A stretch of DNA of 25,904 nucleotides, from the IMG/VR virus record IMGVR_UViG_3300022074_000335, positions 1 through 25,904 of that record; one strand, given 5' to 3'. This document shows positions 6,062-8,918 of this stretch, piece by piece. The stretch comes from a virus. The notes below the pieces were generated by a model. The model was not told the origin of the DNA and did not search any database. It saw only the letters and a list, made by a program, of their open reading frames with translations. The position numbers were made by a program, and so were the translations under genes. Numbering within the stretch: the stretch's first letter is position 1; every line of letters begins with the position of its first letter.

Positions 6062-6252
6062 TGACTGACAAACTAATTAACATTTATCCAAATGAGACTC
6101 CACCTAGAGTCATTGAAAACTATCCAATTAACAAACATCCAATCATGACAAACGAAGCAGAAAGATTTAATGGCTGGGCAGCAATGCTTGGTTTCGTAGC
6201 AGCTGTAGGTGCATACGCAACAACAGGACAAATCATCCCCGGTATATTCTAA
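6061..6252 (+). CDS. hli: High-light-inducible protein (Hli/HLIP)
   Basis: 63 aa with one membrane helix and the chlorophyll-a/b-binding motif E34-x-x-N37-G38-W-A-A-M42-x-G44-F45, the hallmark of HLIPs. The helix runs to about residue 54 and the end [10 protein letters not shown] is typical of cyanophage copies. HLIPs bind chlorophyll and carotenoid in the thylakoid membrane and protect photosystem II and newly made chlorophyll proteins from excess light. The N-terminal 30 residues are a phage-type extension. The gene overlaps psbA by one base (TAATG), so Hli and D1 should be made together, within the late structural transcript. Confidence 0.95.
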
Positions 6253-7334
6253 TGGCAGCTATCTCAGTAACAAGAGGTAGTCAAACTTCCAATTGGGAAA
6301 GCTTTTGTGAGTGGGTTACTAGCACAAACAACAGACTATATGTCGGTTGGTTTGGTGTTATTATGATCCCAACATTGCTAACCGCAACAACTTGTTTTAT
6401 TCTCGCCTTCATCGCAGCACCGCCTGTAGACATAGACGGCATACGTGAGCCAGTTTCCGGCTCGTTAATCTACGGAAATAATATTATATCTGGAGCAGTA
6501 GTTCCAAGCTCCAATGCAATAGGACTGCACTTTTACCCAATATGGGAAGCCGGTACACTAGATGAGTGGTTATACAACGGCGGACCATATCAACTTATTG
6601 TCTTCCATTTCCTCATAGGTGTCGCAGCTTATGCTGGTAGACAATGGGAACTATCTTATAGACTCGGTATGAGACCGTGGATATTTGTTGCTTACACAGC
6701 ACCTCTATCCGCAGCTCTTGCTGTGTTCTTAGTCTACCCTTTCGGACAGGGGAGTTTCAGTGATGGTATGCCTCTTGGTATTTCTGGTACTTTTAACTTC
6801 ATGTTTGTATTCCAAGCAGAACACAATATCCTTATGCACCCGTTCCACATGCTCGGTGTTGCTGGGGTATTCGGTGGAGCTCTTGCCGCAGCTATGCACG
6901 GAAGTCTCGTTACTTCCTCTATCGTTAAGGAGACAACAGAAAACGAATCTCAGAATTATGGCTACAAGTTTGGTCAGGATGAAGAGACTTACAACATCGT
7001 TGCAGCCCATGGCTACTTCGGTAGATTAATTTTCCAATATGCTTCTTTTAATAATTCTCGTAGCTTACATTTCTTTTTGGCTACTTGGCCCGTGGTTGGC
7101 ATATGGCTCACCTCAATGGGTATCTGCACCATGGCTTTCAACCTTAATGGTTTTAACTTTAATCAGTCCATTGTCGATACAAACGGCAAGGTCATTCCTA
7201 CTTGGGCAGACGTTGTAAATAGACAGAACTTAGGAATGGAAGTAATGCACGAAAGAAATGCACACAACTTCCCACTTGACTTAGCATCAACTGAGTCAAC
7301 AAACATCGCACTTACTGCACCACACATAGGTTAA
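6252..7334 (+). CDS. psbA: Photosystem II reaction centre protein D1
   Basis: 360 aa, full length, five membrane helices. Numbering is one ahead of the usual scheme. The tyrosine TyrZ (Y162), the Mn-cluster ligands D171, E190, H333, E334, D343 and A345 and the chlorophyll/iron His residues H199, H216 and H273 are all present, so the protein should be functional. Gln131 equals the Gln130 of D1:1-type proteins rather than Glu130. The C-terminal tail after A345 is [15 protein letters not shown], to be removed by the host CtpA protease. Phage D1 replaces damaged host D1 so that photosynthesis continues during infection. No intron or homing endonuclease interrupts it. There is no leader of its own: the start overlaps the hli stop. 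Confidence 0.98.
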
Positions 7335-7404
7335 TTCCTCGTCCGTTCATCGCTATGCGACGCATGCAATCTAGTCATGGAACGGGGGCTAGGTATCGGA
7401 GGAA
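7335..7404 (+). promoter_or_regulatory. Candidate glutamine-II (downstream-peptide) riboswitch
   Basis: CCGTTC (7343-7348) pairs with GAACGG (7380-7385) as P1. Inside are a TCGC-TAT-GCGA hairpin (7350-7360) and a second CATG/CATG pairing (7363-7366 with 7376-7379). The order CGTTCATC, stem, GACGCA, then ATGGAACG agrees with my memory of the glutamine-binding glnA/downstream-peptide RNAs of marine cyanobacteria and their phages. A CTAG at 7371-7374 can also pair with CTAG at 7389-7392, a possible pseudoknot. TTCCTC (7335-7340), right after the psbA stop, pairs perfectly with GAGGAA (7399-7404) in the next ribosome binding site, giving a way to control translation. The family call is by recall, without a covariance search. 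Confidence 0.7.
7398..7403 (+). promoter_or_regulatory. Ribosome binding site GGAGGA for the downstream peptide
   Basis: GGAGG lies five bases before the ATG at 7408 and is the strongest Shine-Dalgarno in this region. It selects the 7408 start over the ATG at 7377, which lies inside the riboswitch. It is the predicted partner of TTCCTC at 7335-7340. Confidence 0.8.
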
Positions 7405-7407
7405 ACT

Positions 7408-7458
7408 ATGACAGTAACTTACGTTTACCGTGGTGTTGTTTATACAAGACACAAGTAA
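7408..7458 (+). CDS. DUF4278/PirA-like short peptide (16 aa), possibly the first part of a split gene
   Basis: Sixteen codons, MTVTYVYRGVVYTRHK, then TAA. The Y-RG-x-x-Y core is what DUF4278 proteins begin with (LTYRGxxY). DUF4278 includes the cyanobacterial PII-interacting regulator PirA, about 50 aa, which affects flux into arginine synthesis (recalled from literature). The strong ribosome binding site and the riboswitch in front support a real, regulated product. Sixteen residues is short for this family. The stop overlaps the ATG of the next frame (TAATG), so this is either a separate micro-peptide or a DUF4278 gene broken by a one-base deletion near 7456. Confidence 0.6.
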   Translation: MTVTYVYRGVVYTRHK

Positions 7459-7589
7459 TGGCACATCAAAGCTCGGTTATGAGAGCAGCAGTCACAAGGC
7501 TAACACCTGAGACATTCCCTGCTCCAGAGCCAGAAAACAAAACTGAAGAAAAGAAAGAAGATGCTCAACTAGAGACTCCTTCCTTCTAA
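7458..7589 (+). CDS. Acidic 43-aa protein, second half of the riboswitch-controlled unit
   Basis: The frame opens with the ATG that overlaps the preceding TAA. The product starts MAHQSSVMRAAVTRLTPETF and continues with a Pro/Glu/Lys-rich, probably disordered tail ending LETPSF. There is no ribosome binding site of its own, so translation depends on re-initiation after the 16-codon peptide or on a -1 slip. Joined to the upstream frame it would give a protein of about 60 aa, near the size expected for a PirA-like protein. An alternative start at 7377 in the same frame would run through the riboswitch and is unlikely. Confidence 0.55.
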   Translation: MAHQSSVMRAAVTRLTPETFPAPEPENKTEEKKEDAQLETPSF

Positions 7590-7748
7590 CAGCACGGGGA
7601 GCACCTCAGAGTCGGACTCCCCTGCATTTGGCTTTTGCCCGGTACGCCGGATACCTCTAGCCGTCTAGACGGTGTGGATAGACACACAACAAAATACGAT
7701 CGAAAAAAAATTCTGTACAGGAAAGCAATATAAACCTTAACCATAACA
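7590..7748 (+). promoter_or_regulatory. Structured untranslated leader of the major capsid gene
   Basis: There is no coding frame here. Hairpins are visible: GGGGAG (7596-7601) with CTCCCC (7617-7622), GGC-TTTT-GCC, CCGG-TACG-CCGG (7639-7650) and the perfect palindrome CCGTCTAGACGG (7661-7672). None is followed by a long T run, so these do not look like an efficient terminator. After them come AT-rich sequence with an A8 run and a weak AGGAAAG (about 7719-7725), rather far from the capsid ATG. Likely jobs are mRNA processing or stability for the most heavily expressed gene, or a phage promoter whose consensus I cannot recognise. Confidence 0.5.
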
Positions 7749-8918
7749 ATGGCACAACAGAATAGCACATTGACCACGGCTCTTACACGCCCGGGTCAGT
7801 CAAACAGTACAGGTGACGCAAGAGCACTTTACTTAAAGCTGTTCAGTGGCGAGATGTTCAAAGGCTTCCAGCACAATGCTATAGCTAGAGATCTTGTAAT
7901 GAAGAGAACCCTAACAAACGGGAAGAGTCTTCAGTTCGTTTACACTGGACACACAAAAGCTGAGTACCACGTACCCGGCAACAGCATACTAGGTAACACA
8001 GATGGTGCACCTCCAGTAGCTGAGAAAACCATTACAATCGACGACCTATTAATCAGTTCTGCGTTTGTATATGAGCTAGATGAAACACTAGCACACTACG
8101 AATTGAGAGGAGAGATTTCCAAGAAGATTGGATACGCTCTTGCTCAGAAGTATGACAGACTTATCTTCCGTCAAATTGCGAAAGGTGCACGTCAAGCTTC
8201 ACCAATCACTAAGTCCGGCTTCGTAGAGCCCGGCGGAACACAGATCAGAGTTGGTACAAACAACCAAGCATCTGACGCATACGTTCCAGCTTCACTAATC
8301 GCAGCCTTCTATGATGCAGCTGCTGCTCTTGATGAGAAAGGTGTAAGCCAAGAAGGACGTGTTGCTGTGTTAAACCCAAGACAGTACTACGAGCTTATAC
8401 AAGGTGTAGGTTCTAACGGTCTTATCAACAGAGACGCACAAGGTACAGCCCTACAGGGTGGACAAGGTATCATTGAAATTGCAGGCATTAAGATCTACAA
8501 GTCAATGAACATTCCATTCTTTGGTTCTTATGGTACTAAGTACGGTTCTGCATCTGCAACTAACCCCGGTGTAACAAGCCCCGGAAACGTAGGTTCATTT
8601 GTAGGTGAAACAGCAGAAGACGCTAGAGCTTCTGTAACAGGTATCAATGGTAACTATGGTAACTCTTCTGACTTCGCTAACAGCTGCGGCTTAATCTTCC
8701 AAAAGGAAGGAGCTGGTGTTGTTGAGTCTATCGGACCACAGGTTCAGATAACTTCTGGCGACGTTAGTGTTGTATACCAAGGTGACGTTATACTTGGACG
8801 TTTAGCAATGGGAGCAGACTTCTTAAACCCTGCCGCTTGTGTTGAACTTATCGCTGGAGCTGCTGTAGGATCTACAGGTAACGCTGCATTCGGTACAACA
8901 TACCCAGCTAACGCTTAA
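7749..8918 (+). CDS. Major capsid protein, T7 gp10-like
   Basis: 389 aa. The position after the scaffold region and before tail tube A, and the sequence (N-terminus STLTTALTRPGQSNS, then ARALYLKLFSGEMFKGFQHN, then KSLQFVYTGHTKAEYHVPG), fit the HK97-fold capsid proteins of T7-like cyanophages. T7 gp10A is 345 aa. It forms the hexamers and pentamers of the icosahedral head around the scaffold. In T7 the capsid gene is separated from the portal and scaffold only by short sequence; here six small genes plus hli and psbA lie between. It has its own structured leader and a strong terminator after the stop, both consistent with very high expression. No frameshift product like T7 gp10B is evident. 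Confidence 0.93.
   Translation: MAQQNSTLTTALTRPGQSNSTGDARALYLKLFSGEMFKGFQHNAIARDLVMKRTLTNGKSLQFVYTGHTKAEYHVPGNSILGNTDGAPPVAEKTITIDDLLISSAFVYELDETLAHYELRGEISKKIGYALAQKYDRLIFRQIAKGARQASPITKSGFVEPGGTQIRVGTNNQASDAYVPASLIAAFYDAAAALDEKGVSQEGRVAVLNPRQYYELIQGVGSNGLINRDAQGTALQGGQGIIEIAGIKIYKSMNIPFFGSYGTKYGSASATNPGVTSPGNVGSFVGETAEDARASVTGINGNYGNSSDFANSCGLIFQKEGAGVVESIGPQVQITSGDVSVVYQGDVILGRLAMGADFLNPAACVELIAGAAVGSTGNAAFGTTYPANA

Follow-up and report, generated by a model that had tools for sequence, protein, structure and literature searches.

Between psbA and the capsid gene of a cyanophage lies a compact structured RNA followed by a minute open reading frame, and the question raised by this locus is which signal such an RNA may read and which of the neighbouring genes it governs. 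The DNA analysed (the window in what follows) is the 25,904-nucleotide stretch of IMG/VR virus record IMGVR_UViG_3300022074_000335; psbA occupies positions 6252-7334 and the capsid gene positions 7749-8918, and the element and the reading frames behind it are on the plus strand. A preliminary description had placed a candidate glutamine-II riboswitch at this site, proposed to time a short peptide by host glutamine and thereby to link the photosynthesis genes of the phage to host nitrogen status.

Identity and anatomy of the aptamer

When the window was scanned with cmscan, RF01704 (Glutamine-II, or type 2 glutamine riboswitch, formerly the Downstream-peptide motif) was the sole Rfam family above gathering; the match scores 51.5 bits against a gathering threshold of 33 (E-value 5.9e-10 for the whole window), covers positions 1-60 of the 60 of the model, and delimits a complete aptamer at 7341-7394, so that the proposed identity is borne out by the covariance model. 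The score is identical in the virus record from which the window derives. The type 1 glutamine riboswitch (RF01739) has no match at gathering in the window, no tRNA or tmRNA is found in it, and a search near the element for a sigma-70 promoter or a terminator gave nothing above chance. Within RF01704, the aptamer of the window has nothing out of the ordinary.

The first pseudoknot strand, CGTTC (7344-7348), is complementary to the second, GAACG (7380-7384), and one extra base at each end extends the pair to CCGTTC/GAACGG; between them lie the P1 hairpin (7350-7360), composed of TCGC (7350-7353), TAT (7354-7356) and GCGA (7357-7360) in the simple form with a loop of 3 nt, the conserved core CGCATG (7361-7366), of which CGCA is invariant across the phage alignment, and the 5' arm of the P2 helix, ATCTAGT (7369-7375), which pairs with the 3' arm GCTAGGT (7388-7394). 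The stretch CATGGAACG is found at 7376-7384. The closing helix, the inner hairpin and the motifs listed in the preliminary description are thus all present where it placed them; what that description lacked is the P2 helix. The aptamer ends 13 nt before the start of the peptide frame, and the interval holds a ribosome-binding site, GGAGGAA (7398-7404), read directly from the sequence, whose GGAGG (7398-7402) is Shine-Dalgarno-like; the ATG follows at 7408.

The minimum free energy of the element is not unusual with respect to chance (z = 0.13), a test which carries little weight because the aptamer is short and pseudoknotted and the folding program cannot model pseudoknots; the case for the element is therefore carried by the covariance model and by the covariation seen among relatives. 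The compensatory changes which the preliminary description had left to be sought among related phages are there: in 41 diverse phage elements, all the pairs of P1 (4/4) and P2 (7/7) have changed on both sides, giving 11 of 16 pairs so changed and five invariant, with a covariation score of 0.417 against 0.142 for shuffled and at most 0.113 for slid controls, and with 97.6% of the P1 cells paired. The pseudoknot CGUUC/GAACG is complementary in all of these elements and, since its strands are invariant, yields no covariation signal either way.

The closest known system is the RF01704 element of Prochlorococcus and marine Synechococcus, which shares with the phage one the full model, the pseudoknot, P1, P2 and a small YRG (DUF4278-type) reading frame behind. 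The phage element differs in being a single copy within the head-gene cluster, in the number of YRG motifs of its reading frame (one, against mostly two or three in hosts) and in the first P1 pair, which is U-A in 135 of 142 phage elements and C-G in 51 of 54 host elements; to judge from this pair, the phage aptamers are a lineage separate from those of the hosts. The type 1 glnA motif (RF01739) is a related aptamer of the same ligand class and occurs in T4-like cyanophage relatives, whereas the isolate cyanopodoviruses score at most 19.4 bits with this model, below its gathering score of 35. The OM43 phage Melnitz likewise encodes a glutamine riboswitch (PMC9004378), which, unlike the window element, is glnA-like, is placed with a tmRNA gene and belongs to a phage of a heterotroph.

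Retention among cyanophages and the peptide behind the switch

A pattern scan of IMG/VR gave at least 120 loci, which together with the window and six GenBank loci made up the 127 examined; among the matches listed, a T7-like cyanophage structural gene is present on 122 of the 127 and psbA on 90, while the remaining five, on short contigs, have psbA or hli alone. In an independent sample, anchored on the capsid gene and made up of IMG/VR contigs that extend 700 nt or more upstream of it, the element is found on 45 of 47 contigs (the exceptions being L305 and L322), one of the 45 (L310) having a weak model match accepted by eye since a nested reading frame splits its aptamer. Both samples consist of relatives of the window phage and have little bearing on distant groups; in the phage group of the window, the riboswitch is nearly universal. 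As to the GenBank cyanopodoviruses, 15 of 23 records have exactly one RF01704 match above gathering, S-SBP1 has an element broken by an insertion, and RF01704 is absent from the other seven (Syn5, P60, S-CBP42, S-CBP2, S-B28, S-SRP01 and DSL-LC07). A metabolite sensor becomes in this way a near-core feature of an abundant marine cyanophage group, and through it one may ask directly if lytic phages sense the nitrogen status of their host while infecting; among open-licence papers, none was found that joins cyanophage, glutamine, riboswitch and short peptide.

The link with photosynthesis, the last part of the initial proposal, was not supported. The element follows psbA, and since it is downstream of that gene, the leader controls the peptide frame and not psbA; moreover, it is also kept where psbA is not nearby. 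S-TIP28 and SS120-1, two of the 15 records with a match above gathering, keep the element with no psbA annotated between the scaffold and the capsid gene, and in some contigs psbA is elsewhere, is separated from the element or comes after it. Regulation of psbA itself was thus rejected, on position and on the phages lacking psbA there. The constant neighbours of the element are the scaffold and capsid genes, and the association with photosynthesis is therefore one of position, not evidence.

The reading frame behind the aptamer (7408-7458) encodes 16 residues, MTVTYVYRGVVYTRHK, a one-motif DUF4278-like micropeptide that is unannotated in the window and ends straight after YRGVVYTRHK. The preliminary description was correct in stating that the element precedes a short peptide frame with a strong ribosome-binding site, and this frame is conserved: a YRGxxY frame lies behind 160 of 160 unique phage elements with enough downstream sequence. 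Exactly one YRG-type motif occurs in 162 of 162 phage frames, against three in 56 and two in 17 of 78 host frames; as the frames counted were chosen by a YRG-like motif, its presence is partly by construction, which holds neither for the number of motifs nor for the second Tyr. A host DUF4278-type example reads MTTLTYRGKNYVQ...ELTYRRNVY...ELNYRGVNYTK, and it is the last repeat that the phage peptide resembles. Phage peptide lengths are bimodal, at about 17 and at 32-38 aa; in the short-form isolates inspected (P-SSP7, whose peptide is MKVTFVYRGVAYTRVIG, P-GSP1, NATL2A-133 and P-SSP3) the frame is unannotated, so that a sensor is here tied to a peptide of 12-20 residues overlooked in the inspected GenBank records of this form.

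The peptide frame is under purifying selection: over a 10-codon core, comparison of nearest neighbours gives a dN/dS of about 0.24 in frame against 1.3-1.5 in the other two frames, and the Arg of the core uses five codons with the residue never altered. These data bear on the reading that the switch is a host-derived passenger with no regulatory use in the phage, for which it may be said that hosts carry the same riboswitch class and DUF4278 genes; selection on the frame, the phage-specific first P1 pair, covariation within phages and near-universal retention all speak against it, the last two already disfavouring it, and we regard it as highly improbable.

With DUF4278 (PF14105), a 35-aa phage form scores 29.9 bits (cut-off 25.3, E-value 7.3e-07), two others score below the cut-off, and short forms padded to 20-21 aa give no match, the 16-aa window form being too short for the Pfam scan. 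The N-terminus of the glutamine synthetase (GS) inactivating factor IF17 belongs to this family, which shares with the phage form the YRGxxY motif and its occurrence in small proteins encoded under glutamine riboswitches (PMC6316151); the phage form keeps one motif without the rest of IF17, and the IF7-like C-terminal part, which inhibits glutamine synthetase, is absent from the 16-aa frame, which stops after YRGVVYTRHK. A PDB search with a host DUF4278 protein gave no match. PirA and the known GS inactivating factors are reportedly missing from marine picocyanobacteria (PMC8092223), and the partner of the peptide is therefore probably not the Synechocystis one. Our preferred guess is that the peptide may imitate, with a single repeat, the multi-repeat DUF4278 proteins of the host or compete with them. 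What is unusual at this locus is the phage-wide coupling of the switch to a one-motif micropeptide, together with the nested-gene variants of relatives described below.

Direction of switching and the genes downstream

According to reviews of the class, L-glutamine is bound by the type 2 aptamer of one marine Synechococcus, a Prochlorococcus member activates expression, and there is a functional association with the DUF4278 genes of marine picocyanobacteria (PMC6316151); a crystal-structure study proposes that the ligand stabilises the pseudoknot, whereby the ribosome-binding site is freed (PMC6698751). On these grounds we consider it probable that the element is a phage glutamine-II riboswitch through which glutamine turns on translation of the 16-aa peptide, and probably of a 43-aa frame too, from the late head-gene transcript of a T7-like marine cyanophage; the established part of this explanation is composed of the family membership, the covarying structure, the linkage to YRGxxY frames under purifying selection and the near-universal retention. 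By analogy with the family, L-glutamine would bind and stabilise the pseudoknot, and expression would rise with glutamine; the ON direction of the window copy is that presumed from the studied members of the class.

The anatomy of the window suggests how the off state might be built. A candidate P0 strand, TTCCTC (7335-7340), can pair over 6 bp with 7399-7404 (p 0.04 in a shuffle test), and by pairing with GGAGGAA (7398-7404) it would hide the ribosome-binding site, from which formation of the pseudoknot would pull it off; this strand is not found in all relatives. By the same test, about 19% of phage elements and 0 host elements have a P0 helix at p <= 0.05, and the P0 strands differ in sequence yet match (TTCCTC/GAGGAA in the window, TTCGTAC/GTACGAA in S-TIP37 and 12 bp in L024). 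The same helix lends itself to the opposite sign, in which the glutamine-stabilised pseudoknot joins the 5' and 3' flanks and closes P0 on the ribosome-binding site, making of the phage element an OFF switch. The complementarity retained with different sequences in that subset (the window, S-TIP37 and L024) suits this alternative, as does the absence of P0 in hosts, which implies for the phages an expression platform other than the host one that has been studied; nevertheless the studied members of the class activate (PMC6316151) and most phage elements have no P0, and we judge an OFF switch quite unlikely. A universal P0 anti-RBS helix was rejected, the helix being a subset feature, and a crude folding comparison gave no clear common switch (mean unpaired value of the ribosome-binding site 0.411 free and 0.419 with the aptamer folded).

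Under the preferred, activating reading, translation would probably be passed on beyond the peptide. A 43-aa frame (MAHQSSVMRAAVTRLTPET..., 7458-7589), rich in proline and charge, starts inside the peptide stop codon (TAATG), and many relatives have homologues that overlap the peptide stop in the same way (-1, by one base); to judge from this stop-start overlap, coupling of the two frames in translation is probable. The overlap, present in the window and in many relatives, may also be taken to mean that the peptide itself does little and that the switch acts in cis: glutamine-gated translation of the short frame would govern the 43-aa frame as well as how stable the downstream capsid message is or how well it is translated, and would so tune virion output to nitrogen supply, all the more as the element is always upstream of the capsid gene, even with psbA absent or moved, and as a conserved structured leader comes next. 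A pure leader frame, however, needs no such constraint as the retention of the YRGxxY residues through synonymous codon change; many relatives keep switch and peptide without the 43-aa frame; and a leader proper to the capsid gene is present even in L305 and L322, which have no switch. For these reasons a purely cis-acting role appears unlikely.

The conserved leader before the capsid gene (about 7590-7700) includes the hairpin CCGUC-UAGA-GACGG, a covarying hairpin of the GGUACGCC type and a hairpin of the GUGGGAUAGACCAC type, and has no Rfam match; it is kept in the riboswitch-less L305 and L322, the latter of which also carries a homologue of the 43-aa frame, and its first hairpin resembles a tRNA T-arm in some relatives.

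The final steps of the activating reading are its most speculative: the peptide might copy, in a single repeat, the host DUF4278 microproteins with their two or three repeats, might act on the same host partner as they do, as effector or competitor at high glutamine, and host nitrogen assimilation might in this way be set during virion production.

Genes nested within the P1 loop of related aptamers

Complete genes, 51-66 aa long, were found to sit in the P1 loop of glutamine aptamers of both T7-like and T4-like cyanophages; no prior report of a gene nested in a riboswitch was found among open-licence papers. The insertion that breaks the element of S-SBP1 (L358) is a 54-aa frame inside the P1 loop, and of the IMG/VR loci kept with this frame as query, 80 of 80 have it nested in the same way: the nested AUG follows CGUUCA by 3-4 nt, the stop reaches into the ..GACGCAUGA.. 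core, the P1 arms can still pair, though over only 2 bp in two of the loci, and behind comes a YRG frame. This gene, of 51-56 aa, is a member of phrog_628 and has a nearest-neighbour dN/dS of about 0.11; it occupies the glutamine-II P1 loop of T7-like cyanophages at L298, L310, L323, L325, L358, L363-L442 and L494-L524. Versions at 35-40% identity are nested as well, some loci escaping the strict nesting regex because of contig ends or a single altered base in the CATGGAACGG motif. P1 loops enlarged by hairpin sequence without a reading frame are seen in S-CBP1 (L332), S-CBP4 (L334), L301, L291 and L299; the P1 loop therefore tolerates insertions.

In T4-like cyanophages (L525-L543), tandem glutamine aptamers are present between nrdB and talC, and the second holds an unrelated gene of 52-56 aa. 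Homologues of the latter occur in 313 GenBank phage records; nesting was checked in five, S-RS29, S-SM1, Syn33, S-RIM2 and S-SCSM2R (for S-SCSM2R the stretch examined shows no nrdB or talC), and was found in all of them and in 14 of 14 IMG/VR loci. A third nested gene, of 66 aa, lies in the first aptamer of L526, L529, L539 and S-SCSM2R. Over all nested copies, the P1 arms pair at 94% of the first four positions, whereas shuffling gives 80% and, over 1000 shuffles, never more than 88%; in L535/L536 CCCC/GGGG stands in place of UCCC/GGGA. Rfam scans mostly miss these aptamers with inserts or score them below threshold.

The nested start codon is in or just past the 5' arm of P1 and the stop codon in or beside the conserved core. 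It is hypothesised that nested genes and aptamers regulate one another: folding of the RNA around its ligand would shut off the nested gene and free the YRG frame behind, and the aptamer would be melted whenever the nested gene is translated. That cyanophage glutamine aptamers are on this account gene-holding switches with two outputs, the nested gene and the YRG frame being expressed to the exclusion of one another as set by glutamine, is a possibility that we advance tentatively, holding it to fall short of probable; the nested forms would, if true, be an unusual way to pack a gene into a regulatory RNA. Other placements of phrog_628 also occur: in two T4-like genomes inspected its members stand alone behind a baseplate gene, and in four loci (L510-L513) the gene is truly outside the aptamer. 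In L512 and L513 an intact type 1 aptamer (RF01739, 52 and 50.5 bits) follows just behind the gene, a layout which is possibly an ancestral or alternative arrangement.
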